64,000 nucleotides of DNA. It comes from Lunularia cruciata (taxonomy: Eukaryota; Streptophyta; Marchantiopsida; Lunulariales; Lunulariaceae). Positions 2,759 through 64,000 of the stretch are shown here, in pieces; the stretch's first letter is position 1; every line of letters starts with the position of its first letter. Made by a program: the position numbers and the translations under genes. Location of the stretch: positions 14,079,001 through 14,143,000 of the forward strand of contig OX419758.1 in NCBI GenBank assembly GCA_948567375.1, in the 5' to 3' direction. The notes below the pieces were generated by a model, which was not told the origin of the DNA, did no database searches, and saw nothing but the letters and a program-made list of their open reading frames with translations.

Positions 2759-3079
2759 TTGTCACTCCTGGACAGCCTCCGGCGCTATCCTGCGGCCAGT
2801 CTGCCTGTATAGAACTGTAGTTCCGAACTTGGTCTTGAATGGAAGCTATTCCTCAGATAAAAGTAAACGTACTTGGACTGGGATTGGCCCTGCGAGGTCC
2901 CCTGCAGTAGGAACTTCTGAAAGCGTGAAGAGCAAGTGTGTAGGACAAAGGATTGCGCTACTGGGGGTTTAGGCAACGATTTTCTCGCGTGTGGCGCAAG
3001 GGTTTATGAGTTCGACAAAGAAAGCCTAGACCCTGCACCTTTTTTCTTGAAATTCTCGAGTTGAGCTTCAATAGAGGCT

Positions 3080-14165: not shown

Positions 14166-15399
14166 TGTTGGTTTATGGTAGTTCTACATTTTATGTTCCA
14201 ACATAAGAGTCTATTATTCTATTTTGTGAGATCAATGTATTGACATTGAACTCTATCTCTCCCTCCTTGACTAATAATTCTCACATATCTAAATGTCATA
14301 TATATAGTAAGAAATAAGGAGAGAAGGATGCTTGTTGGTTCACTCTATAACCCATAGCCAACCAATGTAAGTAGAGATCCCAATCTACCAAGTGATCTCT
14401 TTGCAAACCATACTTATGCAATCACCTCTTCATCATTTGAACAACTCTCTCTATTAAACCATCTACATTAGGGTGATCTCAAGATGTAGTAGGATGATCA
14501 ATCAAAGCCTTGTTACACAATAACTAAAACTCTCCAAAGAGCTTTGTGCCTTGATCAATCAAGACCTTGATTGATGCACCAAAACAACTAAGAACCCAAT
14601 CTAAGAACAAATAAGCTACCCCTTTATTGGATTTGTCAAGAAGTACAATCAACTCAATCCACTTAGAGAAGTGCTCAATCATAACCAAAACATACTGATA
14701 TGACTATGATATCTCATAGTCAACAATAAAAGTCCAAAATTTGATAGTAACCTAATCCCATGATAGGTAATGGATGTAATTGTAGGATAAGAGCATGAAA
14801 TGATGCTTTAACTTGGTCACAAACCACATATGTGGTACCAAAATATTATACATTGGTTTTCATACCATGCCACTAAGAATGACTTTGAAGTAAGTTATAG
14901 GTTAGTTTCAATCCAAAAATGTCTTAGCTCCTCATGAGCATGTCAAACCAACTATGTTCTTTGAGATGGAAGTGGTACTACTTGCACTATCATCTTCTTA
15001 TATATAAGGAAGATGTTTGCACTCCAATCTAAACCACTTGGCATGTTGAAATACATGGTCTCTTTCCTTGGTACTAATTGTGCTAATCACAATACAAATA
15101 TGAAGATAGTCTATTACCAAGACATCATCATACACATCTTTTTTACCTATACCAATATCCCTACTCTCTATTTTGAGACCTCAATAACTCTTCTTTTTTG
15201 TTCTAATAGAGATACCACTAGAGTCCCAATCAACATATACAAAAGGTAGATGCATGCCAATCTAATATAATCTACTCATCTGTCTCACCATGCAAACATA
15301 CTCCTATATGATCATGCTTAATGGTACATGAGTTTCTACTAAACCCATTAATATCATACTTCACCATTTTAGGTTTGTGAAGAATCATGAAATCATATT

Positions 15400-40027: not shown

Positions 40028-40031
40028 AATA

Positions 40032-40136
40032 TGTCATGCGTATATACATCGCTACACAACATACATCGCTGTCAACATCATACACTATAGAAGCACAACT
40101 CACACATAAGTCATACATAGACTCTAAAGTGCCACA
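40032..40136 (-). repeat. Extra copy of the 105-bp LTR head at the outer 3' edge of M1
   Basis: This segment (plus-strand TGTCATGCGTATATACATCG to GTGCCACA) is nearly identical to 40600-40704, the first 105 bp of the 3' LTR. It lies outside the LTR end and directly abuts the target duplication, whereas the 5' LTR lacks this segment altogether. Confidence 0.9.
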
Positions 40137-40704
40137 ATAATCAGATTGCTTAACACTTTCAACTCAACTCAACTCAACTCAACTCAGATCAGTACTTGAT
40201 TTGTCACTCTATAAACTGCCAACAACTGGGCACTGATTACAGTCAAGCCACACCCACTCAAGCATAGAGAATCCAGGTGACGCTCGCCGGCCTCTGTCCA
40301 CCATAGCCAGGAACTCGAAGGCTCAACATCAGAGAAGTGAGCTCTCTGGAGCTCACTTGGAATCTATACCCCCCTGGACTTGAGCTAGCACTGGAACCCT
40401 AATGGTCCTGCTGACGGCACACTCGACGGTGCGAACGGTGCAAAGTGACGGTGGGCCCCACCGTGAAGTCAGTACCTCGAACACCAAATCAGACTGTCGG
40501 AAAGTAGTCCATGAGAAACTACTAAAATAACTCTAACTACTATCACTAGAACTCTAGTGTCCGAGCAACTAGATGCGGAACTACAAATGGTGTGACAGCT
40601 GTCGTGCGTATATACATCGCTACACAACATACATCGCTATCAACATCATACACTATAGAAGCACAACTCACACATAAGTCATACATAGACTCTAAAGTGC
40701 CACA
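40137..40704 (-). repeat. M1 3' LTR
   Basis: In element orientation the tract TAGGGGGGCAAT is followed at once by TGTGGCACTTTAG, taken as the LTR start. A 105-bp head, the palindrome GACAGCTGTC, and then about 460 bp shared with the 5' LTR follow. A TCAAC pentamer array is two units longer here (near 40160) than in the 5' LTR (near 56808). Confidence 0.82.
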
Positions 40705-40876
40705 ATTGCCCCCCTAGCTGGCGGTTAGGTCCCTCTAACTCCAGATAGCCATCTACTCTAAGTATATGGTATACCCTCTAATGGGCAAAGATCAGGAGGC
40801 CGGGTGCTATGGAGCCCCATCGTTAGTCGCCTGTCTGCAATCTATACCATATAAAGAATGAACTAGCTATAGGTCA

Positions 40877-41014
40877 AGTACATCTAGGACATAACTACTG
40901 TCCCTGAGGAACCACCATGAGGGGAGGAGTCATACATGCCATATGCCATCCTCTCAAACAGCTATCACACACTAACATAGTAGCAGCTCCACCAGAAGAG
41001 CCACATAACATACA
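40877..41014 (-). other. PHD finger coding segment at the end of M1 pol
   Basis: In the 550-residue open stretch 40895-42547, Cys512-X2-Cys515, Cys527-X2-Cys530, His535 and Cys538 match a PHD finger, including the Gly-Trp before His. A TAG at 40895-40897 ends the frame exactly where PHD fingers have Trp. The next codons read Leu-Cys-Pro-Arg-Cys-Thr and then TGA, supplying the last zinc pair. PHD fingers read histone H3 tails; a role in targeting integration is inference. Confidence 0.85.
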
Positions 41015-42547
41015 CCTCAAGCCTGCACGTACAAGTGCCAAGCTTGGGTCCATAGTACCATCAATGTTTGGGAGGTGGCATGGTGCACAATTGCGCACAT
41101 GATCCTTCCAAACAACACCATCACGTCCTTCTAACACAAGGACTCCAGATGGCAAAATCTCACGCACCCTCAAGATAGTGCGGCCTGTAGAAACATCAAG
41201 TGTCGCCGGTGCTGTCTGCTGTAGATATACATAGTCGCCTGGATGAAATCGACGGATTGAGGGTCTATAACCTCCTCCTCGAATGGTAGCATAGCGTAAA
41301 GTATCTCTATGCTGAGCAATTGCCAAGTTCTCAAAGGTCACCGGCATCACTCTTTGAAAGATCTCTGCCCGTTGAGAACATGCGCTCATCCACACATCGG
41401 GGTCATCCAAGTCCAAAACTACAGTAGCATCTTGACAAATGGCTGCAGGTAAATCTGGATCTCGTCCATAGAGTAGAAAGTATGGAGAGAAGGATGCTAA
41501 GGAGGCTTGCCGGCTGAACCAATAGCCCATGGCCAACCAAGGAAACTGGAGATCCCAATCTCCCAAGTGGCCTCTCTGCAAACCATACTTTTGCAACTCC
41601 CTCTTCATCGTCTGAACCACTCTCTCGGCTAAGCCATCTGCCTCAGGGTGATCTCGGGATGTAGTACGATGATCAATCAAAGCCTTGTCACACAAGACCT
41701 GAAACTCCCCCAAGAACTCTGTACCCTGATCAGTCAAAACCTCAGCTGGTGCACCAAAATGACTAAGAACTTGATCCAGGAACGAGTAAGCCGTCCCTTC
41801 ACTAGACTTGTCAGGAAGTGCCACCAACTCAATCCACTTGGAGAAGTGCTCCACCATCACCAAAACGTACCGATGATGTCTCACAGTCAACGGTAAAGGT
41901 CTGGCAAAGTCCAAACTCCAACGGTAACCCAATCCCATGATAGGTAATGGATGTAACTGTGGCGTAGGAGCATTGAATGATGCTCTAACTAGGTCACAAA
42001 CCATACATCTGGCAACAAACTGCTGTATCTCGGTCTGCATACCACACCACCAATAATGACTCTGGAGTAAGCTATATGTATGCTTTACTCCAAAATGTCC
42101 TAGCTCCTCATGAGCATGACAGACCAACTGTGGTCTCTGTGATGGAAGTGGTACTACTCGCACTCTACCATCCTCCCATACACGCAAAAGGTGTCTACCC
42201 TCCAATCTGAACTGTCTGGCTCGCTGAAGAACACGGTCTCTCTCCTTGGCCCCAACTATGCCACCCACAACACCAGTGCAAAGATAGTCCATTAATAAGA
42301 CATCATCATGAATGTCTCGCTGAACTGTACCAATATCTTCACTCTCTGGATCTGTGACCTCAATAACTCCTCCTGTATGCGCTGAGAGAGATACCACCAA
42401 AGTCTCTGCAAATATACACAGAAAGGCCAATGCATGCCAACCTGGCACCATCTCCTCATCTGTCTCACCATGCCAACGTGCTCCGGTCTGATCCTGCTGG
42501 CTGGGACATGGGTTTCTACTCAACCCATCTGCATCACGGTTCACCAC
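40895..42547 (-). CDS. M1 integrase with C-terminal PHD finger (550-residue open stretch)
   Basis: It begins inside the RNase H end (NRDADGLSRNP). The H2C2 zinc-binding module follows (HAHEELGHFGVKHTY...CMVCDLV), then the DDE core (SLDFARPLPL, LTDQGTEFLGEF, GLAERVVQTMKREL). A GPY/F-like region follows (RFHPGDYVYLQQ, IRG-rich), with the PHD finger last. All three catalytic acids are present. The product would insert element cDNA into chromosomes. The first part is out of frame with the preceding RT piece, so this is not a complete polyprotein; the M listed as start is only the first Met of the open stretch. Confidence 0.85.
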   Translation of the reverse strand: MVNRDADGLSRNPCPSQQDQTGARWHGETDEEMVPGWHALAFLCIFAETLVVSLSAHTGGVIEVTDPESEDIGTVQRDIHDDVLLMDYLCTGVVGGIVGAKERDRVLQRARQFRLEGRHLLRVWEDGRVRVVPLPSQRPQLVCHAHEELGHFGVKHTYSLLQSHYWWCGMQTEIQQFVARCMVCDLVRASFNAPTPQLHPLPIMGLGYRWSLDFARPLPLTVRHHRYVLVMVEHFSKWIELVALPDKSSEGTAYSFLDQVLSHFGAPAEVLTDQGTEFLGEFQVLCDKALIDHRTTSRDHPEADGLAERVVQTMKRELQKYGLQRGHLGDWDLQFPWLAMGYWFSRQASLASFSPYFLLYGRDPDLPAAICQDATVVLDLDDPDVWMSACSQRAEIFQRVMPVTFENLAIAQHRDTLRYATIRGGGYRPSIRRFHPGDYVYLQQTAPATLDVSTGRTILRVREILPSGVLVLEGRDGVVWKDHVRNCAPCHLPNIDGTMDPSLALVRAGLRCMLCGSSGGAATMLVCDSCLRGWHMACMTPPLMVVPQGQ

Positions 42548-43640
42548 TCCAGGTCTGTGAACAACCGTGAAAGCATAGGAGCAGATGTCAACCTCTCCTT
42601 GAGCTCTACAAAAGCTCTCTCCTGCTCATCTCCCCAACACCACTCTTGTGTAAGCTTGGTCAGCTTCGTCAAGGCCTTGGCAATGGCACTAAATCCTCTA
42701 ACATAGCGGCAATAGAAGTTTGCCAACCCAAGGAATGCTCGCACTCTGCTCACATCCGTAGGCCGAGGAATACGTGCAATAGCCTCCACCTTGGTCTACT
42801 AAACACCAAGTCCTCCGGGGTAGATAGTGTGACCCAAATACTCAACCTGCTCGTGAAGAACCTACACTTCCCAAGATGTAATTTGAGTCCATGAGATCTC
42901 AACCTCTCAAACACCTCCAACAATTGTCTCTCATGCTCCTCCACAGTAGTGCTATAGACCAAAATGTCATCAATATAACACCGAGCAAAATCCAATCTAG
43001 CTAGGATCCTATCCATGACCCTCTGGAACTCAGTAGGAGCATTCTTCAACCCAAATGGTAAGAATCTCCACTGATATAACACATCCTTGCCGTGAGGATC
43101 AATAGCCCAAAATGATGTCTTGGACTTATCTTCCTCCCTGATCGGCAACTGATGATATCCTACTCAAAGATCCAAAGTACTGAAGACCTTTGCATGCCCA
43201 ATCGCATAAAAAATCTCCTCCGGTGTAGGCATGGCATACCGATCAGCCCTGGTCTGTCGGTTGATAGGATGGTAATCTCCACACATCCGCATATCTATAT
43301 AGTTGCCATGCATATCCTTCTTGGCTGGCATCACTGTCGCTGATGCATACTCTCCATGTGAAATCTCCACCAAACCAGCTTCAAAAAGGTCACTACTCCG
43401 GCTCTGAATCAATGTCCTCTCCATATCACTATATTGATAAGGACGTCGGAAAACAGGTGTGTCATTAGTCAGCTCAATCCGTATACCAGGTCCCTTCAGA
43501 GCACCCAAATCCTTCATACTGAAGGCAAAACAACTCGTGTGACTCCTCAAGAACCTCCAAACCCTCCGTCTTTCCTCTCCAGTAAGCTTGGGTCCAAGAT
43601 CTGGCTCCCAAGTATCCTCTATAACTGTAGTAGGAGTGGA
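42541..43640 (-). pseudogene. M1 reverse transcriptase, with most of RNase H missing
   Basis: 43164-43550 holds the RT N-terminus (PGIRIELTNDTPVFRRPYQY, then RMCGDYHPINRQT). 42750-43148 holds LPFGLKNAPTEFQRVMDRI and CYIDDILVYS with the catalytic Asp-Asp. 42541-42789 holds the thumb (AFLGLANFYCRYV). A TGA lies at 43164-43166 in LDL-X-VGYHQ and a frame change near 42845. At about 42570 the sequence jumps from the early RNase H (LTSAPML) to its end (HRPGVVNRDADG). Roughly 110 residues, including the RNase H active site, are gone. Confidence 0.88.
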
Positions 43641-43658: not shown

Positions 43659-45515
43659 CTACACTGGGCCCTTGGGAGCAATAGTGTCATGCTCCCGACC
43701 ACTAGAGGTCCCAACCTCTGTGTGAAAAACTCCCTCCACTCTGGCTGCAAGCTCCACACGTCCTCTGGCTGCATCCCATGTGGACCAAGGGTGTAATCCA
43801 AGTAGCCCACGCTCACCTGGATGGACTCCAAGTAGACCACTCTCCCTAGTAGCTACTGGATGTGTCCCAAGAATACCATGTCCACTCGGTCCATCGCCCC
43901 CAGCATGTGCCTGAATCGTCTCGATAGGCACAGGGCTCACAAGTGTCCGAGTGGTGATGGCTATCAAGCGCATCCTACGCTGCTCTGCCAAACCAAGGCT
44001 CACAATCCAGGTCAAACAGTTCAGGTCCATAGCCTGACCTAACACCTGACGCCTGGATGCCTCTGACACTGTTGGAACAGCGGTAATACCGGTGCAAAAA
44101 CCCATTGCCCGCTCTCTCTCATCAGCATTGGGCTCCACCAACTGCTATAACTGTGAGTCCCAAACAAGTCCAAGTCCTCCCTCTCAAAAAGCATGAGAGC
44201 CTGGGAAACTCATGAGTGTAGGAAATGCAGCTCTAGGCTGTCCAACTAGGTTCACTACTGCCATAGGTGACCTATCAGCCACTACCACTGTCTGAGACTG
44301 ACGCCCAACATCCAAGATATCATCAACAAGAATGTGGTCTAGTCGCTGAATCCCATCATAACTACGCTGTAGAACCTCTCTGGGTAAAAGGTTCATCCAC
44401 CAAAGGCAAAGACGATGAGCCCGTGATCCCACTCTGGCTGCATCTAACAATACTGGCTGCATCTAACAATACAGTAGGTCCCATCCAAGAATGGACCTGA
44501 TGTGTACTCGCCACCACTCTAGTGCGAGAATCACCCAACAAAGGAACGTTCTCCAAAAGGTAAGCTGAAGAAACAGATTGATGAGATGTCGTAATATCCG
44601 TAACATCTCCCAAAACACACCAGAATGAGGATCTTGAAGACCCAAACCGCGGCCCGCACGTGTATGTCCCTGACATGGCCATCCAGAAATCACCAAGTGA
44701 ACAGGTCCATGTCTCTCTAGGTCATGCGCTCCCAGTAAGGAAATGTCTCCTGGTAAGGCCTTCTGGTAACCTCTGACTGCTGACATTGGTAATAACTCCG
44801 GATACCGATAGGCCAAGTGTGCCACATGATGTAGAGAGACTCGCCTAGCAATCTCATCTCTCTCTACATACAAGTACCTCTGTACTCGGATACCCACCTG
44901 TAACACCGCAGCTAGTCCGGTGCTGATCCCACCAAACAACTCCAATAGGCATATCCCCTCTACTGGGTACTGCCAAGCAATGAGTGTGGTATCCAGAGGT
45001 GTCAAAGAAATCGCCTCTGGAGGCTCATCCTCACACTCATCCCTTGATGGTACGAAGGCTCCACTCCAAGCCTGCTGCACCAACTGATCTGCATGTTGCT
45101 GCAATGCTTCCTCTGAACTCCACAATGGAACATCCAAGGTGGATGGAACAATCCCACTCGTACTCCAAAGTCGAGTGATCTCCTCTAGTACTGGAGTATC
45201 CTCTGCATGGGAGTTCCCCTCCAACAAGTCACCAGGCCAAGTAACTACACCACTGAAAGCCAAAACTGATGCTGCCATGGTCCCGGACTATAGTGAGCCA
45301 AGACTGCCACTATTGAAATGTACTGGTAGGCGACATACCTGTCCCTCACTAGACTGCCAACCAGGTCTATAAGAGGCTGTCTCCTCCCAATAGTCAATGT
45401 TGAAACCCATGGGGTATAACACCGCTCCTCCAACTAGCACATCATATGACTCAGCTATCGTCGCAATAGCCTAAGCTCTCATCACCGAGCTATCAGTCGG
45501 ATGACCAGGCTGAAC
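43659..45515 (-). pseudogene. DNMT3-type cytosine-5 DNA methyltransferase domain inside M1 pol (frame-broken)
   Basis: The open stretch 44463-45278 carries motif I (CLLELFGGISTGL, about 44951-44913), an acidic SAM-site strand (YLYVERDEIA) and motif IV with the catalytic Cys (VISGWPCQGHTRAG; Pro-Cys at 44678-44673). Motif VI (LLENVPLLGD; Glu codon 44551-44553) is in another frame. Motif VIII (SRAHRLCLWWMNL) returns to the first frame in 44184-44462. Motifs IX-X (ERERAMGF, RRQVLGQAMDLNCLTW) are in 43659-44141. The order I-IV-VI-VIII-IX-X is that of DNMT3, not the rearranged DRM order of flowering plants. Breaks: TAG at 45288-45290, 45471-45473 and 45516-45518, TGA at 44184-44186, a 7-bp deletion near 44584 relative to M3, and a 19-bp duplication at 44434-44471. 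The enzyme would methylate cytosines using SAM; this copy cannot make it whole. Confidence 0.87.
43788..43877 (-). repeat. Short peptide repeats in the linker between methyltransferase and RT
   Basis: In the minus-strand frame GILGTHP, GLLGVHP and GLLGLHP recur at 10-13-residue spacing just after methyltransferase motif X. It looks like a duplicated flexible linker; no function is claimed. Confidence 0.7.
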
Positions 45516-46550
45516 CTAGACAACAAGCTCTCCACGTGTGATGTACTGTGTCGAACCACCACCAAGAGATGTCTGGATCTGAAATGGACACCTCTCCACA
45601 TCGGTCTTCCGTAACTCCGGACCAACAACTACAGCCTTCCCCAACATAAGGGGCTGGGCACCAGAGTCTAACAAGACTCTCTGTGGTGTATAGACCTCCC
45701 CTAAAGGTCCCACCAAACAAAAGATCCCCCTCTGGTTATCCAATAGGACAACACCAGGTGTAAACCGTGCTCTCTCAAAGGCCGGTCTAGTTGGCAACTC
45801 CTCCAGTCTAGCCGCTGCTGCCTGCCACAACCCATTGGTCGCTGAACGGATCCCATGCTCCTCAACCAAGTCAGATCCACTACCAACCACCTCTGCTCTA
45901 GTAGTAGGAACTGCACCATCCCTACTCTCACACAATGTGGCAGCCAACCGAAACACTAGGGCTGGGTCAACTCCCAATGTAAACATGTCACTGGCTGAAA
46001 ACAAAGGATGCCGCATAATCAGCTGAGCCGCCCCCAACATCATGCTAGACTGAGTCTGTGTAGTAGCAGGTGGCTGACTAGCAGGTAGTCCATCATGTAC
46101 TCCATCACCACCTACCACACCTACACTGGGACGTCTAGGAACCATGGATGTTGTCTGCAATGCCTCATATAGCATGAAAGACTGGGGAAGTCTGACCTGT
46201 CTCCCAACCTCTCCTCTCTGTGGGTCCAACTCCACTGATGCTCCTCTAGGCTCTGGAGCACGTACTGCACTCCTAGTCACTGCTGCAAATGCATCCACCT
46301 GTGCTGCTCCGCACATGAAGTCCAAAGCATCTCTATCACCAACATATGAGGTGGAAGCCTCAGCACTCGAATCTGATCTCCTCTGAGCAATAGCCATACT
46401 AGCCAATCTTTGCTCCAACTGCTCAATCCAAGTAGCCATAGCTGTGTCAAAAGCAAGGGCAGGTACTGCACCCCTACTAGGTGTAGATCCTCTACCACCA
46501 CCTATACCACCTCGTCCTCCATGAACTGGAGCTCCTCTACTACCTGCCAT
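45516..46550 (-). CDS. M1 Gag C-terminal region and aspartic protease (344-residue open stretch)
   Basis: The stretch begins in the Gly-rich tail after the zinc knuckles (GAPVHGGRGGIGGGRG). It continues through a helical segment (WIEQLEQRLASMAIAQRRSD) and a low-complexity linker, and ends with a pepsin-like retroviral protease: EVYTPQRVLLDSGAQPLMLG, with catalytic Asp-Ser-Gly, then SLGGGSTQYITRGEL. Protease cleaves the polyprotein during particle maturation. A TAG ends it; the same frame continues through two more TAGs into the methyltransferase. M3 carries a decayed equivalent. Confidence 0.85.
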   Translation of the reverse strand: MAGSRGAPVHGGRGGIGGGRGSTPSRGAVPALAFDTAMATWIEQLEQRLASMAIAQRRSDSSAEASTSYVGDRDALDFMCGAAQVDAFAAVTRSAVRAPEPRGASVELDPQRGEVGRQVRLPQSFMLYEALQTTSMVPRRPSVGVVGGDGVHDGLPASQPPATTQTQSSMMLGAAQLIMRHPLFSASDMFTLGVDPALVFRLAATLCESRDGAVPTTRAEVVGSGSDLVEEHGIRSATNGLWQAAAARLEELPTRPAFERARFTPGVVLLDNQRGIFCLVGPLGEVYTPQRVLLDSGAQPLMLGKAVVVGPELRKTDVERCPFQIQTSLGGGSTQYITRGELVV

Positions 46551-46559
46551 AGCAGCCCT

Positions 46560-47126
46560 ACCACTCCGTAACTCCGGGTGTAGGTCAAAACACCGGTCAC
46601 TAGTGTGACCAAATCTGTGGCAGTGCTCACACTACCTCTGTGCTGGCTGTGATGCACCACAGGTATCAGGTCCGCTGCCTTGAGTACACTCTCTCCTATG
46701 GTGAGGTCCACCACAAGTCCAACAAGCAACACCACCACTCACTGGCTGCTGTTGACCCAAAAATGAGGGTAAGGGTTTAACTCCACTAGGCCCTCCACTC
46801 GCTCCATAGGATCTGGGCTATCCACCTTGTCCTTGAAAACCAACTAAGTGTGGTGCACTCTTCTGCACTCTAGAAGAAGTCACAACCGTGGTTGAGGTCT
46901 CTCTACCAAATCCAGCTGTCACCACTCTCTCCTCCACCATGTTGAGCTCAATGCGCTCAGCCAAACCAAAGACTACTGCCAAAGTGGACGAAGTAGCCTG
47001 CAACAACATAGCATCACGAACTCTACGTCGCAACTCCCTGTCCAGTATCCCATACCAAAACTGGACTGCCTGGGCCTCAGTAACTCCCTGAGTGAAACTG
47101 ATCAGCCACCTCATGCGAGTGTATGC
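46560..47126 (-). pseudogene. M1 Gag, C-terminal half with two zinc knuckles
   Basis: Read from the B insertion: KAYTRMRWLISFTQGVTEAQ, LAERIELNMVEERVV, then CWTCGGPHHRREC and CEHCHRFGHTSDRC; the second is a perfect CX2CX4HX4C. TAG at 46818-46820 and at about 46634 interrupt it. M3 has Gln codons at both places but a TAG two codons away from the second. Gag would bind element RNA. Confidence 0.85.
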
Positions 47127-47131
47127 CTTGC

Positions 47132-48845
47132 TGTAATACTCCGAGGACAAGAGAAGAGAGAAAACACAGATTGCACACTCAAACATTCGATGCCCCAAGG
47201 GAGCACCTTCTCTTTATTATATAGACAAAGAGGATCTCCTACAAGGAAGCTCCACCATAGGATTAGGGACACAGATAGGTGACATGTCGGCAAGGTCCAC
47301 CCTTGGATTACTTACTTGGATGGGTGACCTGTTTGGTCTAGGTCCTATCTGGTTGGTCAAACGAGCTTTGACCGGAGGGAATCTTTTAGGGAATCTTCCT
47401 GTAGGAATCTCAGAATCACATGAGTAAGGTACCGTTGGAAAGCTCTCGATGAGACAAACCAGGGGGGATGGAAGGCCAACCTTCTTCTCTATTGGGGGGG
47501 AATCTGCACATTTTCGAGGCCTAATTCATCCGTTTAGGCCTCCGAAATTGCCTTCAAAGATTTCAGGCATATTTCGATTCCTACTCTATTAATAGAAGTC
47601 CCCTTTTGGTGATACCTCTTTCTGATCTGTTTAGTCCATCATGTGTAACATCATTCCAGATTTACCAAACCAATTCTCACCTTTAAATCATATGTCTAGC
47701 TATTGGTTCTAAGGTTCTCAAGTCTATTTCGGTTTCTGCCCTATTAGTAGAAGTACTCTTTTGGTGATACTTCTATCTGATCTGGAGACAACAATTCAAC
47801 ATGAAAATCATGTGTGTGGAAGGCAAGAGGATACTTGCAAATGCATTTTAGTTATGGCAAACAATCTGGTAGTAGAGGTCAAGATGAAGCTAAAATTCTA
47901 GCCAAAGATTCTTATTGTTGCAAAAACTGACCCACAAATTATAGGAGCTCAATCATCCAAAGGCATAACCAGTACCCAAGGACTCACCTTTCATGATGGT
48001 AAGCTATGGATCTTAGATTCCATAGATATAAGAACCACCATCCTAGCAAAATGTCATGATTTTACCATTGTAGTCATGTTAGAGTGGACAAGACCTTAGA
48101 TGCAGTCAAATGCAATTAATATTAGCCCACTATGAGAAACAATGTGATGGAGTATATTCAAAGTTGTCTACTTTGTCAACAAAATACAGCTTCTAATCAA
48201 GCTCCCATAGGACTCCTTCAACCCCTCCCTACTCCTACACAACATTGGAAATAGGTAACCATGGATCTGGTTTGTGAATTGCCCAAGACCTCCTCATCAT
48301 AGTATTTGTTGATAGACTCAAAAAAATAATTCATGTACATCCTACCACTAAGGACATGATTGATCCACAATTAACTCAATTGTACTTAGCTATAATCTTT
48401 TCTCACCATGGCCTGTCTCAAGTGCTCATCATCAATAGAGGTACTAAATTCACTTGTTTGTTTTAGAGAACACTCTTTGGCATCTTCAAAACCAAACTTG
48501 ACATATCCATGGCTTACCATCTACAAACCAATGTACAAATTGAGTGGGCTAATCATACTATTTAGGAAAAGCTTCAAGGCTTCACCTTAGATTAGCAAGA
48601 GAGGTGTGACACCTTATTTCCACTGGTAGAATTTTTCTACAACAATTTAGTGAATGTATCCACACAACTCATACCATTCTTCCTCATGTATAAAGAGCAT
48701 CCTTTTACACCTTTGAGCTTGATGAAGATTCTACTTAGTGGCTACTTAGTAGAAGTACTCTTTTGACCATCATGTATAACATCATTCTAGATGTTACCAA
48801 ATCAAATTTCACATCTAGATCATATGGCTAACCCTTGGTATTATA
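47132..48845 (-). repeat. Element B 3' LTR, enlarged by an antisense pol insert
   Basis: 47132-47795 and 48746-48845 match the 745-bp 5' LTR with few differences. Between them are about 950 bp not present in the 5' LTR. In element orientation the LTR start has changed from TGTAATACC to TATAATACC. Confidence 0.93.
47797..48745 (+). pseudogene. Plus-strand pol fragment of a B relative inside the B 3' LTR
   Basis: Read on the plus strand it parallels B pol from the RNase H end to the integrase core (B 50415 down to about 49435). Recognisable pieces are [31 protein letters not shown] and PFFLMYKEHPFTP. It is far more decayed than B itself, with stops throughout, and is antisense to B transcription. 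Confidence 0.88.
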
Positions 48846-48858
48846 GACCTCCCTCCTT

Positions 48859-51800
48859 TTAAGACGCAACGTCCTCGTTGTGCAATTGTTGCTCAAATGC
48901 TTGCACCAACACCGGTGCATGTGCCAAATTGGCAGCGGGTTCCCAGGTTGCTTCATAGAGAGGGTAACCTTTCCATTGTACTAGATATTCCACCCGTGGA
49001 TGGCGAGTACCACGCATACGCTTTTGGAGAATCCGCTCTACTTCATATTCCTCTGTGCCATCAATGACTGTCGGACAAGGTCGAATGTCCTGTGTGGAAG
49101 TACCTTGGCCTGATCGGGGAGCATATCTGTGTAATAGGGAGACATGGAACACTGGATGGATCTTCATGTGTGGTGGTAGCTCAAGGTGATAGGCCACAAC
49201 GCCGATGCGACGAAGAATCGAGAAAGGCCCAATAAAACGAGGTTTGAGCTTACGAGATCCAACTAATGTGAGGTTGGTTGTTGATAGCCACACTTGATCC
49301 CCAACATTGAACTCCATATGCCTACGGTGTGCATCAGCATACTGCTTTTGTCGATTTTGCGCAATCTGTAAACTGTGCTTGGCGCTCTCCACACCTTGTT
49401 GGATTCTAGAAACAAATGTGTTGACTGCATCAACCTTGGTAGTCACTGGACGGATCTTTATCAAGCTAGAAGGTGTGAAGGGATGCTCACCATACATGAG
49501 GAAGAACGGAGTGACCTGGGTGGAGGCATTCACTGAATTGTTGTAAGCGAATTCCACCAACGGTAGTAGGGTGTCCCACCTCTCTTGCTCTTCTAAGGTG
49601 AAGCCGCGTAACATGTCTTCAATCGTGCGATTAGCCCACTCTGTTTGGCCATCTGTTTGTAGGTGGTAAGCTATAGATATGGCCAACTTGGTTTTGAAGA
49701 AACCAAAGAGTGTTCGCCAAAACAAACTGGTGAATTGGGTGCCTCTATCGGTGATGAGTACTCTAGACAAGCCATGGTGAGCAAAGACTGCATCTAAGTA
49801 TAGTTGAGCTAGTTGTGGAGCGGTCACCTCCTTGGTGGTAGGGCGTACATGAATCATTTTGCTGAGCCGGTCCACAAAGACCACAATGGAGTCAAACCCT
49901 GAGGTGGTCTTGGGTAATTCACAGACGAGATCCATACTCACTTGTTCCTAACGTTGGGTAGGAGTGGGAAGAGGTTGAAGGAGCCCTGCAGGAGCTTGAT
50001 TAGAAGCTTTGTTCTGTTGACAAAGTAGGCAGCTATGCACATAGTCCATCACGTCGTTGCTCATCTTGGGCCAATAGTAATGGCGCTTGACTGCCTCCAA
50101 GGTCTTGTCCACTCCGACATGAGCTGCAATGGCCAAATCATGACATTCCGCTAGAATGGTGGTGCGTAATTCTGGGACATTTGGGATCCACAATCGGCCC
50201 TCTCGAAAGGTGAGTCCTTGGGTGCTGGTGATACCTTTGGACGCTTGTGCTTCTACAATCTGTGGGTCAGTTTTTGTAGCAGCTAGAATCTCTTGCCAGA
50301 ATTTAGGGTTATTCTTAACCTCTACCGCCAAGTTGTTGGCCATTGGCATGCGGGTGAACGCATCTGCAAGTTGCTTCTTACCTTCCACGTAGGTGATTGT
50401 CATGTTGAAGCGTTCTCGCCACTCTGCCCACTGAATTTGGTGACGAGATAGATCTTTCTGCGTCTCGAGGTAGACTAGAGGTTTGTGGTCTGTCTCTACT
50501 ACAAATGCCTTCTCGCCCAAGTAGTGCTTCCAATGCTTGGTTGCTAGAACAATGGCCAGCTCTTCTCGTTCTGTGGTGTGGTAGTTGCGCTCTGCCGGTA
50601 ACAACTTTCGAGAGAAATATGCAATTGGATGCCATCCGTCATGCCACTCTTGTTGTAGGACTGCTCCTATTGCTATGCCTGATGCATCCGTAGCCAACTT
50701 GATTGGACGTTTTGGGTCATACCACTTCAAGATTGGTGCATGTAGCAAGGCGGCCTTCAATTCTTGAAAGGCCAACTCTTGTGCAGTTCCCCATGTCCAC
50801 TTCTTCCCCTTGCCAAGTAGTGCCGTTAAAGGCTGTGCAACCTTGGAGAAGTCCTTGACAAATCTACGATAGAATCCCGTCAACCCCAAGAAGCTCTTAA
50901 GTTGAGTCTGATCTTCTAGGGCACTCCATTTTTGAATGACCTCTATTTTATCTGTCAATACTTGAATGCCCTCTGCACTTACTCTATGCCCTAAGTAGTC
51001 TACTTCAGACTTGCCAAACTCACACTTTGAGATTTTGGCATACAACTGATTCTGTCTTAGAATCTGGAGGACCTCTCGTAGATGTTGTTTGTGTTCTGTC
51101 ATTGTGCTACTATATACTAAGATATCATCCAAGAAGACGATAATAGACTTATCCAAGTGTGGACGAAATATGTCATTCATTAGGCTCATGAAAGTGGCAG
51201 GCGCATTGGTGAGGCCAAAAGGCATCACAAGATACTCAAAGTGGCCATACCTGGTTCGAAAGGCAGTTTTGTACACATCCTCCTCTGCAATTCGGATTTG
51301 ATTGTAACCGCTCCGCAAGTCTAGTTTGGTGAAGTATCTCGCTCCATGGAGTTGATCAAACAAGTCATCCATGCGAGGTAAGGGGTATTTGTTCTTCACT
51401 GTTTGCTGATTGAGACCCCGATAGTCAATGCACATGCGCATTGTACCATCCTTCTTCTTCACAAACAAGACAGGGGCCCCATATGGTGATACGCTAGGTT
51501 GGATGAACCCTTTCTGTAGCATCTCCTCAATTTGAGTCTTACACTCCTCCAACTCATGAGGTGATAGGCGATATGGGGCCTTACAAGGAGGTGTCTTCCC
51601 TGGGAGTGTCTCTATTTTGTGATCTACTCGCCTTTTAGGTGGTAATCTTGAGGGTAGATCATCGGGAAAGACATCTTGAAACTCATCCACCACATCCTTC
51701 AATTTCTCAGGAATTTGTCCAGCGAGTTGTGCACTCTGGACTTCTCTTATTAGACCCAGAAAACATCTATCGGTCTTACAGACAGTTGTCGTCCCTACGA

Positions 51801-52284
51801 CATATAGAGGCAGTTTCTGCCTGTGTGATTTTTCTTTAACCCCAATGATTGACCATTGGTGGGTTCTCACTACTTTCTTCCTCCAATCCACCATTGGGTT
51901 GTACTGCTCGATCCATGGCATGCCTAAAATTGCATCATAACGGGCTAACTGTATCACTCGCCACTCAATTGCTTCCTAATATTCTCCTACAGAGAGGGTT
52001 ACTCGTCTAGGTAATGATTCAATCCTCTCTGTTTGCCCATTTGGTAACTCTACTTCTTCACTTCCATCTCTCTCTAGATCCATTCCCAATCTGATTGCAA
52101 CAGAGCGAGACAAGAAATTCTCTGTTGCTCCCGGATCTATTAATACTCTCACTTGATTACCTTCTAGGATTCCATTCACAACAATCAATTGTGAGGTTGC
52201 CTTTCGGGATCTTTGCGCATTATTCTTCTTCCTTCCCTCGCTTCTCTGCTTCCTTATTGAGCCAGTAAGGCCGCGAGGTACATT
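48859..52284 (-). pseudogene. Element B Pol: protease, RT, RNase H, integrase, chromodomain (two in-frame TAGs)
   Basis: In one frame: protease VLIDPGATENFLSRS (52188-51976; Asp-Pro-Gly in place of Asp-Ser/Thr-Gly). RT at about 51500-50950 has [25 protein letters not shown] and [11 protein letters not shown]. RNase H has [15 protein letters not shown] and [11 protein letters not shown]. The zinc-binding domain reads [12 protein letters not shown]...CLLCQQNK. The DDE core has SMDLVCELPKT, ITDRGTQFTSLF and GQTEWANRTIEDM. The chromodomain reads YEVERILQKRMRG, YLVQWKGYPLYEATWEP. TAGs at 51976-51978 and 49948-49950 break it; at the latter, Trp is expected before Glu-Gln-Val. Chromodomains steer such elements to heterochromatin. 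Pol lies in the -1 frame relative to Gag. Confidence 0.93.
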
Positions 52285-53381
52285 TACTGGCGATCTTCAT
52301 TTTCCGAAGTGGTTTCCACCTCCTCCTCTTCAATATGCCTCTCCATGTTGTTCAAAGATCGCCTGTACGAAGGCCGAGGGCCTCTAGGGAAACGAGTGTG
52401 ACAATTGGTAGATATGTGCCCAATACGGCCACAATTGTAACAACGGCGTTGTTCTCCTCGAGTCCCTTCTCCTCGTGGGACTCCATCTCTTCGTTCTTCT
52501 ACCCGTCCTCGCTCTCCTTGAAGCGGCCGTGCTCCTCGATCCCGGAATCGAAGGTTGCCCAATTCCATCGGTACTAGTCCACCCATGTGTGGCATTTCTG
52601 CCCGATAATGTTGAGGTGGAACTACTCCTTCACCTCCACCTAATGCTCCAGCTATTCTCTGCACACAAGCAATGGCTTCAAATACCGTGCGAGGGTTTTG
52701 CACCATGACTTCTTGGCAAATCCGCTCTTTCAACCCTCGTTTGAAATTGTCGAGAGCCTCTGCTGGACTCATTGCAACTTGTAGATCCATAAATGCCTCC
52801 ACATACTCTTGTACGTTATTCTTCTGTCTCAATCCCCATAGTCGGGTTCGAGCCATCTGCACAGAATCCACCGATTGGAAATTCTTGAGCAATCCTTCTT
52901 GCATTGCTGTCCATGTGACCTCCCTTCTCTCTGCCAGCATGGATCGTTCCCAAGCATCATACCATGTGAGGGCTTTATCGGTCAAGTACCCACATGCAAA
53001 CACGCATGCAACATGCTTTGTGATCTCTGTTGAGAACAATCAAAAATATCGATTCATTCTTGAGATCCAATTCTCCACTACTCCCATCGTATGCTGCCCC
53101 TTGTAAGGCTCGATGTTGCAGGTCTTCTTCATCCGGAGTAGCAATGTGGCTTCATCGTTGATAGGGTTCGTAGGCACGGGTGCCTCTCCAAGTACTTCAG
53201 TCGCAGGTACTGGGTTTTGAGACGGCTCTTCTTCTTGCATGGCTTGATCGTTCCTGAGGATCTGCACTTGACTTTGCAATGTCTCCATGGTCATCTTAAT
53301 CTCTCGAAATTCATTCAACATCCCTTGCATTCCTTGCACCAGCTCTTGCAACTGCGGATCCATGGTGCCTGCAACACCCAA
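52284..53381 (-). pseudogene. Element B Gag (one in-frame TGA)
   Basis: It begins MGVAGTMDPQLQELVQGMQG with a heptad-like helix. It continues through the retrotransposon-gag domain (LTDKALTWYDAWERSML, DLQVAMSPAEALDNFKRGLK) to an Arg/Gly-rich segment and the knuckle CYNCGRIGHISTNCH. TGA at 53040-53042 in 'NRYF-X-LFSTEI' interrupts an otherwise continuous 365-codon frame; Arg (CGA) at this place would fit C-to-T decay. Confidence 0.9.
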
Positions 53382-53953
53382 TTGCTAACGTCTACTTCAA
53401 TACAGAGTCAATATAATCACTCTGGAAGGCGCACGAACTATCAGAACTACCATTGGGACCTCAGAAGCTATCACTTGGTGATAATACTCCTCACCAAAAT
53501 TCCTAACCACAAAATCTCTAAACATCAATTTCGGCCTCACTACATAACGGATTTCTACTTGAGTGTTGAAAGGGAGAGGATTTGGGACATTCATATCCAT
53601 ATTATCATAATAGAATGTAGATCGTCAAATCCCACTCTCTGTCATATATCACCACAGGTAGAATCACCGGGTTTGGTGAGTTCATCACTCTGTCCATGAA
53701 TTCAGCACCGAAGTGATAAACTAGCGATACTCTCATCTGCTCACGCTGGATGTACATAACCTTGATGTGGAATGGGTTTGAGAATGGAAAGCTAGGTGCG
53801 GGAAATTGTCCCCCCGGCGCATTCATCCCATCCGCTCTCTAAAGTCCTTCCTAAGTCTAGCGATTACTCTATGTTCTCCACCTCAAATTACTCAGTTTCA
53901 GTAGTTTGTGCTATTCCAAGAGGGGTGATCCACTCTCTTGGACTAGAACACTC

Positions 53954-53965
53954 GCTCTGATACCA
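53954..53965 (-). other. Element B primer-binding site
   Basis: The minus strand reads TGGTATCAGAGC, the standard 12 nt complementary to plant initiator-Met tRNA, one base inside the 5' LTR. Confidence 0.93.
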
Positions 53966-53966
53966 T

Positions 53967-54711
53967 TGTAATACTCCGAGGACAAGAGAAGAGAGAAAAC
54001 ACAGATTGCACACTCAAACATTTGATGCCCCAAGGGAGCACCTTCTCTTTATTATATAGACAAAGAGGATCTCCTACAAGGAAGCTCCACCATAGGATTA
54101 GGGACACAGATAGGTGACATGTCGGCAAGGTCCACCCTTGGATTACTTACTTGGATGGGTGACCTGTCTGGTCTAGGTCCTATCTGGTTGGTCAAACGAG
54201 CTTTGACCGGAGGGAATCTTTTAGGGAATCTTCCTGTAGGAATCTCAGAATCACATGAGTAAGGTACCGTTGGAAAGCTCTCGATGAGACAAACCAGGGG
54301 GGAGGGAAGGCCAACCTTCTTCTCTGTTGGGGGGGAATCTGCACATTTTCGAGGCCTAATTCATCCGTTTAGGCCTCCGAAATTGCCTTCAAAGATTTCA
54401 GGCATATTTTGGTTCCTACTCTATTAGTAGAAGTCCCCTTTTGGTGATACCTCTTTCTGATCTGTTTAGTCCATCATGTGTAACATCATTCCAGATGTTA
54501 CCAAACCAATTCTCACCTTTAAATCATATGTCTAGCTATTGGTTCTAAGGTTCTCAAGTCTATTTCGGTTTCTGCCCTATTAGTAGAAGTACTCTTTTGG
54601 TGATACTTCTGATACTATCTGATCTATTTTGACCATCATGTATAACATCATTCTAGATGTTACCAAACCAAATTTCACATCTAGATCATATGGCTAACCC
54701 TTGGTATTACA
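53967..54711 (-). repeat. Element B 5' LTR
   Basis: 745 bp, TG...CA. It contains a TATATAATA box (plus 54052-54059) and two diverged tandem copies of about 150 bp (TATTAGTAGAAGT, TTTTGGTGATAC, CATCATGT(G/A)TAACATCATT) at about 54415 and 54575. Confidence 0.95.
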
Positions 54712-54716
54712 CTTGC

Positions 54717-55446
54717 GTAGGCTCTCTACAACCTTCCGCTGGAACTCCTGCAAGCTCCTCAGCTTGTCAGTCCGCACTCCCTGGTAGTTCTGCCTCAAAC
54801 ATAAGAAGAACTCCACCATGGGATTAAATCCCGGTACCACACCACCTCCTGCAGCGGTACCTCCACTCGTAGTAGCACTATCTCCAGCTAGTGCACCTCC
54901 ACTAGCTCCACCAACACTACTCGAGCTAGAACTCGTAGGTACAGCCGATCTACTCCTGGCCACCGAGCCTGAAGTGATGGAGACATAGTGTGGAGACCAA
55001 TACTGTCTCCATAACTCAATCTCCTCCAAATGAGCTCTCCTGAACTCATGGTAGTCATCCATCGGCGGACCTTCCAGATGCTGGAACAACCCCTTCCATG
55101 CCATGAAAGGTGTGAACAAAGTCAGGTTCCGCATCTGCTGCAGATCACACCAACTGTCAAACTCCTGGATGAAGTCATCCAACTCAATAGTACCCACTGT
55201 ACCAAAGTAACGCCTAGGGCCTTTGGAGGTCCCATTAATCTCGTCCATGTCCCACAACAACGATGCGGACACACCAAGTGCACTCTCAACTGAATCAGCT
55301 CCTGTGTCGAACTCCAACTCAGAGTCTATCTCCTCCCTCACTGGGACCTGAGATACAGGCTGATACCGAGCACCACTCTGAGTAAACCCACTGTGTACTG
55401 CAGGGCTAACTCCTCTGGAATCTCCAAAGAACTCTGTCGTGACCAC
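54717..55446 (-). pseudogene. M1 Gag, N-terminal half (cut by element B)
   Basis: The open stretch from 55446 reads VREEIDSELEFDTGADSVES, FGTVGTIELDDFIQEFDSW, FTPFMAWKGLFQHLEGP. A Ser/Gly-rich linker follows, then LRSLQEFQRKVVESLRK, where B is inserted. The frame resumes with AYTRMRW beyond B. The domain layout is Gag-like, but the first part has no family motif I can name. Confidence 0.8.
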
Positions 55447-56783
55447 TTAACTGCAACAGCAAACCCGAACCACCAACTGCAACCGCAAGTCGCAACCGCA
55501 AGTGCCCCACCAAGTGCCAACACCACCACGTGCCAACACCAACTAGACACCACCCACTAATGTAACTCTAACCGAGATAACTACACTAGGGGAAAGGCAA
55601 CCTGTAACCTACCATCATAACACGCACTCTCACGGTCTGCAGGTCATCACTTCCTGCCTCACCAGAGAGAAACAAAGGTAGTCTGACTGGTCATCACTCC
55701 AGCCTCACCACCAAGAGCACACCAGAGCACCAACGCTCAAAAGTCAGGGCACCTCACACAAACATGGTGCACAAACAAGAAGTAGAGAATGGAGGGGATC
55801 CAATCACAAGAAATCTAAACAAAAACCCTCCATCTCATAACACAACACGGGACTGACTCTGCCACCATTTGGCATTTGACATAAGAGTAGTTCGTCTCTA
55901 AGTCCTAAGCTACCAGGATCACCAAGAATGGGATAAAACTGCCTCTCCTAGCCAAAGCTACATGTGTATAGATAACAGTGGCGTAGCCACTAGGACAACA
56001 AGTGAGGGTGGACCAGTTGGCTAGGGCACCAGTCTAGGAACAAGAGATCTAGGGGTCAAACCCTGTTGCGCACAATCTAGCAAGAAAGGCAGATTTTGCC
56101 AACCAATGACCAAGATCTACTCTAAACTAGCTAGTCTCACGCCAGCAAGCTGGCTTGCTGGCCCTTCTAGGCCTTCGTAGCCTCTCATAGCCCACAGCCC
56201 TATGCCTCGAAGCCTCTAAATGCCAAATGTGGCCTTTCTTGTTGCCACTTCGAACCTCCTCCAAAATTGGCAAAACTTCTCCAAATCTGTGAAACTCCTC
56301 CAAACTAGCAAAACTTCTCCAAATCTGGCCAAACAGCGAAACTCCTCCAATTCTGGCCATAAATCTGACGTAAAATCTGACATAAACCCTAAAGATGGAT
56401 GTCCGCCAAATCCCCCGCTAACTTTCCACTCGAGCCAAATTGACAAAACGGGTTTTTCCAAATCACAATTTCATGAGAAGAGCTTTCCAAATCCACCTTC
56501 AATTTCACTTTTTGAGCCCAACTCGCAGCAGATTGGTCCTGCCCTTCACCTCTTGAGCTCAAAATCACAACACTGCTCAAAAATTGCTCCTTCTTTGCTC
56601 GAAATTTGGCCAGCGCTTCCGCACACCATCCGCCTAACTGCCAAATCTGCATCAACTGAACGAGCTTCTGCACACTAGGGAAACACCGAACTTGAATCGA
56701 GCTACCACAATCCACCGAGCTTGGAGATACCACCAACAGTCAACGTTCTTGCACCCGATTTCCCCCTGACTTCACTTCTCTGA
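55447..56783 (-). other. M1 leader between 5' LTR and gag
   Basis: 1.3 kb without a continuous frame into gag. 56255-56365 contains four degenerate repeats of (G)GCAAAACTTCTCCAAATCTG / GAAACTCCTCCAA(A/T)CT on the plus strand, G-rich in the element RNA. No standard TGGTATCAGAGC primer site follows the LTR; the adjacent sequence is TCAGAGAAGTGA. Confidence 0.6.
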
Positions 56784-57235
56784 TGTAATCAGATTGCTTA
56801 ACACTTTCAACTCAACTCAACTCAGATCAGTACTTGATATGTCACTCTATAAACTGCCAACAACTGGGCACTAATTACAGTCAAGCCACACCCACTCAAG
56901 CATAGAGAATCCAGGTGATGCTTGCCGGCCTCTGTCCACCATAGCCAGGAACTCGAAGGCTCAACATCAGAGAAGTGAGCTCTCTGGAGCTCACTTCGAA
57001 ACTATACCCCCCTGGACTCAAGCTAGCACTGGAACCCTAACGGTCCCGCTGATGGCACACTCGACGGTGTGAACGGTGCAAAGTGACGGTGGGCCCAATC
57101 ATGAAGTCAGTACCCCAAACACCAAATCAGACTATCGGAAAGTAGTCCATGAGAAACTACTAGAATAACTCTAACTACTATCACTGGAACTCCAATGTCC
57201 GAGCAACTAGATGCGGAACTACAAATGGCGTGACA
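56784..57235 (-). repeat. M1 5' LTR, lacking the first 105 bp
   Basis: 452 bp matching 40138-40597, with roughly two dozen differences. In element orientation it begins TGTCACGCC right at the target site and ends CTGATTACA. The 105-bp head that starts the 3' LTR (TGTGGCAC...) is absent. Confidence 0.85.
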
Positions 57236-57239
57236 AATA

Positions 57240-60169: not shown

Positions 60170-60861
60170 TGTGAGCCGGCCTGTCTCTCTCACTCAGGAT
60201 GAACCTCTAATGGCTATTATGGTAGCGCACCATGGATTAAGAAGGCAAGGAACTCCAACTCCATCATACTCCTCCAAGGCTAACACTCCAAGACTCAAGA
60301 CATCGCTCACTAGAGAACTCAATGAGAGAGATAGTTGCAAATGGAAGGATGTTGAGTACCTCTTCACCCCTTTTTTAATATACTTTTGAAATAGTTGCAC
60401 ACCAAAGTTACTTATTATCATAGTAACTCAAGTTACTAGGTTAAAATTCAAGTAAACTCAAAAAGTAGAAAGGAACATCCATTCACATGGGCATATTCCA
60501 CTAGCATGTGATCTTATCTTGACCCAACCACTAAGTCAAGGATTCTTTCACGTGGACTATCCTTGGACTATAGAAGAACCCAAAACAAAAAGGCTTGCGG
60601 ACCCAAGAGTTCTCAACTCTTTCCTCAAAGTCAAACACCTAGGAATAATAGTAAGTCAACACACTAGAATCCAAAGTAGTGGTGCTCATCTTTTCCACTT
60701 CCTCTAAAGTAAGGTCCCCACTATCTAAGCTATGACTAACTTTAGCTAATCATGACTAATGTAGAACCATCCATTATCTCTATATAAATAATATCTCTCA
60801 AATAATTGTAATACCAAGCTAAATATCACAATACCAAACACATGCACAAATAGGTGTTATA
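60170..60861 (-). repeat. Element C 5' LTR
   Basis: In element orientation it begins TATAACACC (TG changed to TA) and ends GGCCGGCTCACA, followed by TTTTTGGTTCCGTTGC, a likely primer site. It abuts M3 at 60862. Confidence 0.83.
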
Positions 60862-60879
60862 GCTTTGCCAAGCCAAGGC

Positions 60880-62153
60880 TCACAATCCAAGTCAAATAGT
60901 TCAGGTCCATAGCTTGACCTAACACCTAATGCATGGATGCCTCTGACACTATTGGAACAATGGTAATATTGGTGCAAAAACCCATCACCCGCCCTCTTTC
61001 ATTGGCATTGGGCTCACCAACTGGTGTAATTGTGAATCCTAAACCAGTCCAGGACCTCCCTCTCAAAAAGCATGAGAACTTGGGAAACTCATAAGTGTGG
61101 GAAAAGCGGCTCTAGGCTGTCCAACTAGGTTCACCACTATGATAGGTGACCTATTAGCCACTACCACCATCTGAGACTAACACCTAGCATCCAAGATATC
61201 ATCCATATGATGTATTCTAGTCACTAAATCCCTTCATAAGTTCATTCTAGAACCTTTCTAGGTAAGAGGTTCATCCACCAAAGACAAAGACGACGAGCTC
61301 GTGATCCTACTCTAGCTACATCTAATAAAACAACAAGTCCCATCCAAGAATGGACCTAATGTGTACTTGCCACCAATTAGGTGTGAGAATCACCCATCAA
61401 AGCAATGTTCTTCAAAATGTAAGCTTGAGAAATGGACTAATGAACCTAGAGATGTTGCAATATCTATGATGTCTCCTAAAACACACAAGAATGGGGATCT
61501 TGATGAACCAGACCTTGGCTAGCACATGTATATCCCTAACATGGCCATCCAAAAATCACCAAATGAATAGGACCATGTCATTCTAGATCATGCACCCCCA
61601 GCAAAAAAAAGTCTGCTGGTAGGACCTTTTGGTAACCCCAGACTGCTGACATCAATAATAACTCAGGATACCAATAGGCCAAGTGTGCCACATGATGGAG
61701 AGAGACTCGCCTAGCAATCATATCTCTCTCCACATACAAATACCTTGTACTCGTATATCTGCTTGTAATACCATAGTTAGTTCAATGCTAATCCCACCAA
61801 ACAACTCCAGTAAACATACTCCCTGTATTGGATACTGCCAAGCAAAAAATGTGGTATCCAAAGGTGTCAAGGTAATCAACTATGGAGGCTCATCCTCACA
61901 TTGGTCTCCTGGTGATAGAAAAGCTCTACTCCAAGCCTATTGCACCAACTAATCTACATGTTGTTACAATGCCTCCCCCAAACTCCACAAAGGAATATCA
62001 AGGTGGATGGAACAATCCAACTTGTACTCCAAAACCAAGTGATCTCTTCTGATACTAGAGTATCTTTTGCATGGACATTCTCCTCCAATAACTCACCAGG
62101 CCAAGTAACAAAACCATTGAAAGATGAACTATAGCCGCCATGGTCCCGGACTA
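60880..62153 (-). pseudogene. M3 methyltransferase remnant
   Basis: Nucleotide alignment with M1 covers motifs I to X. The motif VI Glu codon has become Lys (AAG), so the catalytic Glu-Asn-Val is lost. It retains 7 bp near 61450 that M1 lacks, and has only one copy of the segment duplicated in M1 at 44434-44471. These two differences show which M1 indels are private. Confidence 0.8.
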
Positions 62154-62159
62154 TAGTGA

Positions 62160-63990: not shown

Positions 63991-64000
63991 CTCTCTAACC

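Follow-up and report, generated by a model that had tools for sequence, protein, structure and literature searches.

A DNMT3-class methyltransferase in the Gag-protease frame of a gypsy-type element kept at thousands of genomic places

By analysing a window of 64,000 nucleotides (C7:14079001-14143000) together with the genome around it, we found that a DNMT3-class C5-methyltransferase (MTase) is a regular part of the Gag-protease-MTase frame of a gypsy-type retroelement. The evidence supports a gypsy-type polyprotein with a DNMT3-order enzyme that was constrained during the spread of the family and has been kept at thousands of places. The kind of element is already known from the alga Klebsormidium nitens (KnitGypsy-Dnmt3), and the element in the window represents a large, probably bryophyte branch of it. 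The genome comprises 566 Mb in 74 contigs, eight of which (60–85 Mb each) account for nearly all of it; for Lunularia cruciata, the part of the published description drawn on here gives 580 Mb and bursts of Ty3/gypsy elements (PMC9985172).

The window copy and its methyltransferase

The copy lies on the minus strand. It starts with TGTC in terminal repeat A1 (56786..57235, pairing with A2), ends with GACA in repeat B2 (40032..40138, pairing with B1) and is flanked by a target-site duplication (TSD), found by eye, at 57236..57239 (TATT in the element's direction) and, with the same four bases beyond B2, at 40028..40031. The 5' part of gag (54700..55542) was assigned by a protein match to residues 1-281 of P0001, with a likely first Met at 55248. 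It is split from the rest by a nested second gypsy element (47148..54699, minus strand), recognised by its own repeats (47132-47431/53967-54266 and 47662-47774/54498-54610) and by protein matches. The remaining gag, a zinc knuckle (46605-46631) and the protease (LLDSGAQ, 45654-45674) occupy 45516..47147, and the MTase, which has frame changes in this copy, 44001..45017, both by motif mapping and protein matches. An in-frame TAG (43659..43661), followed by CAG CCA, was read between the MTase and the reverse transcriptase (RT; 42565..43445). Domain and protein matches place the end of RNase H, the integrase and a PHD finger at 40877..42580, the PHD finger (about 40877-41026, by protein match) containing a stop in this copy. 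Repeats B1 (40600..40706) and A2 (40138..40597) follow. Since the element ends and TSD enclose the MTase, the possibility that it is an exon of a host gene was ruled out.

The earlier note had read a set of C5-methyltransferase motifs between protease and RT. Motif mapping located this set on the minus strand: motif I (LLELFGGISTGL, 44913-44948), motif IV with SGWPCQGHT (44661-44687), motif VI with LLENVPL (44539-44559), motif VIII with SRAHRLCLWW (44397-44426) and two parts of IX-X, ERERAMGF (44097-44120) and GQAMDLNCLTW (44007-44039). Their order, I-IV-VI-VIII-IX/X, is the canonical DNMT3 order and not that of DRM, as had been claimed; the DRM-type rearrangement, with motifs VI-X before I-IV, is absent from the window MTase, and the genome's own DRM (L002) is rearranged. 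The placement given earlier stands in so far as the MTase lies between protease and RT, but it ends a Gag-protease-MTase frame and is not simply inside Pol. In the window copy motif VI is in a frame different from that of the remaining MTase motifs, so the enzyme is broken, and because gag is also split by the nested gypsy, the copy makes no enzyme. With its frame changes and nested element this copy is dead and cannot itself be a source of the MTase.

Against the best open piece in the window, PF00145 gave E 3.8e-4 and 20.4 bits, below the 22-bit cut-off; against P0002, a stop-free MTase copy from L009, it gave E 2.4e-8 and 34.2 bits, above the cut-off, so that the family assignment proposed earlier becomes significant in better copies. 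In a comparison of P0002 with PDB sequences, DNMT3A, DNMT3B and DNMT3C fill the top 29 of 53 matches (best E 8.8e-12); HaeIII comes next (E 6.6e-4), DRM gives E 0.013-0.12, and DNMT2-type enzymes lie far behind those of DNMT3 type. A PF00145 match, DNMT3 ahead of other C5 enzymes, canonical order from I to X and the presence of both catalytic Cys and Glu place the element's MTase in the DNMT3 class. Its canonical order and weak DRM matches rule out an origin from DRM.

A second, more diverged and decayed copy (M3; 60812..63993, minus strand) contains gag, protease and MTase, the MTase pieces (60881-61876) being 52–73% identical. The recurrence of the arrangement, which had been noticed before, is real. 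Protein matches within the window gave no RT adjacent to these pieces, and M3 has no readable MTase/RT junction. Two minus-strand fragments, at 14302-15397 (49–70% identity) and 8190-8756 (46%), match the RNase H-integrase-PHD part of the element; no MTase matches were found near them, and each may represent a further branch of the family.

The nested gypsy at 47148-54699 has no MTase, and its integrase end is chromodomain-like by reading. It is judged to be young because its terminal repeats are 99–100% identical. Chromoviruses are Ty3/gypsy elements with a chromodomain, and we take the nested element to be an example. Their integrase likewise ends in a module that reads chromatin, in their case a chromodomain, whereas the MTase element has a PHD finger there and an added MTase.

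Copies, repeats and the stop junction

Within three mismatches, a 27-mer from MTase motif X occurs at 4,209 places in the genome and an integrase 27-mer at 3,588, the reversed control giving 0 for each; these are motif places, not complete elements. The MTase motif is therefore at least as common as the integrase motif; it would be rarer if many copies lacked the MTase segment. The thousands of places rule out a single accident common to two copies. In the first 58.9 Mb of C1 an exact MTase motif lies 2-4 kb upstream of 42 of the 72 exact integrase places, mostly at a distance of 2,633-2,634 bp; this pairing uses exact matches alone, and the remaining 30 may hold an inexact MTase motif or none.

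Twenty 10-kb copies were fetched, picked for long open frames or MTase score, and twenty shorter ones were also picked by MTase score. Conservation of motifs IV and VI among the fetched copies is biased by this selection. The repeat order A1-coding-B1-A2-B2, with A of about 449 bp and B of about 107 bp, is seen in 17 of 21 copies (the 20 of 10 kb plus the window). In L010 and L015 the B pair is visible, accompanied in L010 by a short piece of A, and L016 and L024 have no such repeat pair within the fetched stretch; a plain pair of two equal long terminal repeats is present in none of the 21. The element ends are TGTC...GACA, and 4-bp TSDs were read by eye in all six copies whose two flanks fall within the stretch (L011 CATA, L014 ACTT, L017 AACC, L018 TCTT, L027 ATGT and the window TATT). 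Gag, protease, RT, RNase H and integrase are in Ty3/gypsy order, and a Pfam scan of P0001 and P0003 found the rve integrase domain and no tyrosine recombinase. Split direct repeats are shared with DIRS/PAT elements, but the tyrosine recombinase and absence of TSDs that characterise those elements do not apply here. Ends, TSDs and rve domain thus indicate insertion by a DDE integrase, the repeats themselves being of DIRS/PAT type. The A-I-B-A-B order would be the expected product of a two-LTR circle opened within an LTR.

In L009 and L010 an open frame of 1428 aa comprises Gag (with two zinc knuckles), protease and MTase; among the best 120 of 13,557 first-look candidates, eight match this frame without a stop. 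It ends at TAG, after which come RT, RNase H, integrase and PHD finger. Protease, MTase, RT, integrase and PHD were matched in all 20 ten-kb copies and gag in 19. The PHD finger at the integrase end (E 6.3e-11) has CHD4, KMT2D, PHF12, DPF3 and KDM5B as its nearest solved counterparts.

We surveyed the junction between MTase and RT in 45 sources (L005-L048 and the window), one of which, L034, is without both MTase and junction. TAG CAG was read in 44/44 junctions and TAG CAG YYA in 42/44. Genome-wide the junction motif occurs at 3,036 places within three mismatches (control 0); allowing any codon after TAG gives 946 exact places, and among the 100 listed CAG is kept in 91, as counted by eye. 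Leaky stops of tobamovirus type have the context UAG-CARYYA, which the element's junction shares at the level of sequence. Because the Gag-protease-MTase frame ends at TAG-CAG-YYA, RT, RNase H and integrase are probably made by stop readthrough.

Possible roles of the methyltransferase

Judging from the junction, it is likely that most ribosomes would stop at the UAG, so that the MTase would be made in Gag amounts and packaged, readthrough supplying RT and integrase. Such a Gag-level supply is no rule for the whole family, since Closterium P0196 and Klebsormidium P0217 have a frame that continues from MTase into RT with no stop. The packaged MTase would methylate new cDNA in the particle or in the pre-integration complex. 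A fresh copy would then enter the nucleus already marked and would be less exposed to the responses that a host mounts against unmethylated foreign DNA; alternatively, the gain from marking might lie in the timing of the element's silencing. The integrase would insert the marked cDNA, and the PHD finger would read the tail of histone H3. We tentatively regard this methylation of cDNA before its insertion as the most likely function of the MTase. The MTase may also act on host chromatin, and the earlier note's suggestion that it masks the element from host silencing, or exploits that silencing, is a further possible role.

The 2018 authors named self-restraint as an option (PMC5890265, in the part used here): the MTase would seed methylation on integrated copies of the element itself, lowering activity and host cost so that the family persists. 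The copies do show changes of the C-to-T type. Divergence between A1 and A2 within a single copy ranges from 0.3 to 10% (17 copies), 161 of the 187 differences are C/T or A/G, and C/T-type differences per site are 0.113 at CG, 0.054 at CHG and 0.023 at CHH. This gradient is, however, what methylation is expected to leave behind in a plant genome and is uninformative on the methylating enzyme; the host's two DNMT3s, DRM and CMT-like gene would leave an identical trace. Moreover, a family at thousands of places looks unrestrained, and we consider self-restraint unlikely.

Less probable again is a domain that methylates or binds RNA, or that plays a structural role in the particle. The domain does share the Gag-protease frame and adjoins nucleic-acid-binding zinc knuckles. 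In the portions of the published yeast work consulted, the Klebsormidium domain gave no DNA methylation, an outcome that its authors call inconclusive, and a dinoflagellate DIRS DNMT3 domain carried out de novo CG methylation. Against an RNA or binding role, the closest solved relatives are DNMT3 DNA enzymes, well ahead of the DNMT2 type. In addition, the catalytic Cys is invariant in 23/23 aligned relatives, with the motif VI Glu nearly so, and both are kept in 31/31 own copies, which were chosen by this very stretch. Methylation of the cDNA before insertion is for us the preferred reading.

Relatives, origin and persistence

Protein searches returned 176 relatives (120 of them listed), 49 and 51. 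Their records are labelled as Marchantia polymorpha, M. paleacea, Riccia sorocarpa, Calypogeia fissa, three Sphagnum species, four Closterium strains and Klebsormidium nitens, and many more are environmental. Both MTase and RT are visible in 24 of the 49 proteins of one search. The MTase precedes RT in seven of these (Marchantia, Sphagnum, Closterium and P0172) and follows it in 17 environmental proteins, where it lies before the integrase whenever an integrase is visible. PHD matches were obtained in 16 of the 49, namely 12 of the 17 with a moved MTase and four with the MTase directly before the integrase, whose RT falls outside the record. The PHD finger, present in 20/20 own copies, was found by pattern in P0172 as well, and in none of six Closterium proteins and one Klebsormidium protein, some of them incomplete.

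The environmental P0146-P0162, P0167 and P0169 are gypsy polyproteins with the MTase between RNase H and integrase; in P0163 the MTase alone was seen and the domain order is not readable. P0172, also environmental, is a very divergent MTase-RT-integrase-PHD polyprotein (MTase 30% identical, longest branches in the quick trees) and may be an older side line. Closterium has many diverse MTase-bearing polyproteins, several also with PF00098 zinc knuckles, and its P0196 is a single open frame from Gag to integrase with no PHD. Among viral contigs one stretch fit a pattern, and none encoded a relative of P0002.

For the MTase trees, 218 proteins with the domain were reduced to 117 with at least 80% of it, to 87 by thinning and to 78 in a quick tree; a careful tree was built from 31 hand-picked rows. 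The quick tree splits 74 element MTases from a small non-element sample (two own DNMT3s, one DRM and human DNMT3A) with support 100. The careful tree gives the same split at 100/99, and its element side includes Klebsormidium, Closterium, the bryophytes and the branch with the moved domain. The comparison with host and retrotransposon methyltransferases that the earlier note had called for thus returns the element MTases as one clade. Forcing the bryophyte-type elements together with the host DNMT3 of this genome was rejected (p-AU 0.00108), which rules out a recent capture from this genome's own DNMT3.

By reading, the host genes L001 (C7:31989837) and L004 (C1:51668693) are intron-split DNMT3s of canonical order, L002 a rearranged DRM and L003 a CMT-like gene. 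Together with the closest relatives of the element, this gene set suggests that the host is a bryophyte, and so a land plant. Host DNMT3 and DRM are C5 methyltransferases too, and the DNMT3 motif order is that of the element MTase; they fall, however, in clades separate from the element MTases, and DRM is rearranged.

In the RT tree the MTase-bearing elements form one clade relative to two other gypsies of the window (99 in the quick tree; 100/99 in the careful one, which leaves out P0172 and represents Klebsormidium by P0217 alone). The branch with the moved domain groups as a single clade (96/94). Elements whose MTase precedes RT form a grade, suggesting that this position is older; since forcing them into a clade was not rejected (p 0.217), the direction of the move is likely, not proven. 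We have good confidence in one old capture of an MTase by a gypsy lineage and one later domain move in a sister branch, and one old acquisition is more likely than several.

Occurrence of MTases in dinoflagellate and charophyte retrotransposons, mentioned in the earlier note, is described in PMC5890265. In the sections of that paper used here, KnitGypsy-Dnmt3 combines gypsy domains and DIRS-like repeats (Fig. 4 legend) with a DNMT3 that lacks introns, is not rearranged and is under purifying selection. All of these features recur in our element, and the K. nitens MTases P0208 and P0217 (identified by species name, not by published accessions) group with the elements here in a shared clade. Unlike KnitGypsy-Dnmt3 as there described, our element has a TAG splitting MTase from RT and a PHD finger ending the integrase, and occupies thousands of places as against few copies. 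KnitGypsy-Dnmt3 was published as an independent acquisition in the Klebsormidium lineage, whereas it is placed here with bryophyte and Closterium elements. Of the suggestion that the window holds a further or related case, the relation to the charophyte element therefore stands, in preference to a separate capture. Symbiodinium SymbioDIRS-Dnmt3, which in the same sections has two different domain orders, is alike in carrying a DNMT3 within a retroelement polyprotein and A-coding-B-A-B repeats. It differs in its tyrosine recombinase and DIRS-type RT, in place of the rve-type integrase, gypsy RT and 4-bp TSDs seen here; its MTase was left out of the trees.

If related gypsy elements, the bryophyte ones among them, had captured host DNMT3s several times independently, this would agree with the 2018 reading of the Klebsormidium element and with the two MTase positions among related elements. 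We find this improbable in view of the single clade of element MTases (100/99), the rejected grouping of bryophyte-type elements with the host DNMT3 of this genome (p 0.001) and the single moved-domain clade in the RT tree (96/94). One old capture is the reading that we retain.

In the 31 copies whose MTase is ungapped, omega of the domain is 0.372 (bootstrap 0.34-0.41); it is 0.359 outside the stretch used to find copies and 0.392 in the 13 copies without stops. Elsewhere in the element omega is 0.234 for RT, 0.253 for gag, 0.360 for protease, 0.502 for integrase and 0.748 for the linker from MTase to stop. Neutral simulation with the observed mutation types gave 0.743 (0.595-0.868, 20 runs), so that the purifying selection for which a check had been proposed is seen on the MTase (0.37 vs 0.74). 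A stop in the MTase is found in 18/31 copies, compared with a mean of 20.9 in the neutral simulation. Together, omega and stop counts show that the MTase was constrained during the spread of the family and that copies decay freely after insertion. A passenger MTase carried without selected function would suit the stops in 18 of the 31 sampled copies, but is very improbable given an omega of 0.37 against 0.60-0.87 in 20 neutral simulations and the retention of the motifs by Closterium and environmental relatives even at an identity of about 35%.

As a whole, a captured DNMT3, a leaky stop and cDNA methylation form the best explanation, to which we give roughly even chances. Rather more doubtful is the full history, in which DNMT3 would have been taken up near the base of the streptophytes and passed at least partly by descent into bryophytes, with thousands of copies, leaky-stop supply and cDNA methylation before integration. 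Titles and abstract starts of the literature on DNMT-bearing streptophyte retroelements gave no land-plant case, and supplements may list bryophyte ones. Relative to the literature found, what appears new is the thousands of places in a probable land-plant genome, the relatives in liverworts, Sphagnum and Closterium, the readthrough-type junction, the PHD finger, the TSDs with split repeats, and a tree that speaks for a single old capture more than for the independent acquisition put forward in 2018.

The streptophyte case described in the literature found is one alga, and our trees suggest one old family reaching bryophytes. The combination of split repeats, DDE integrase and TSDs bears on the replication mode of such elements. 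If the proposed scheme is true, a retroelement with split repeats joined by a DDE integrase would write the host's silencing mark on itself during replication. Cytosine methylation classically targets retroelements, and a family that encodes a methyltransferase at thousands of places reverses the roles. With Marchantia polymorpha, a transformable genetic model, among the plants that this family appears to reach, the benefit that a DNMT brings to a transposon could be put to the test there.
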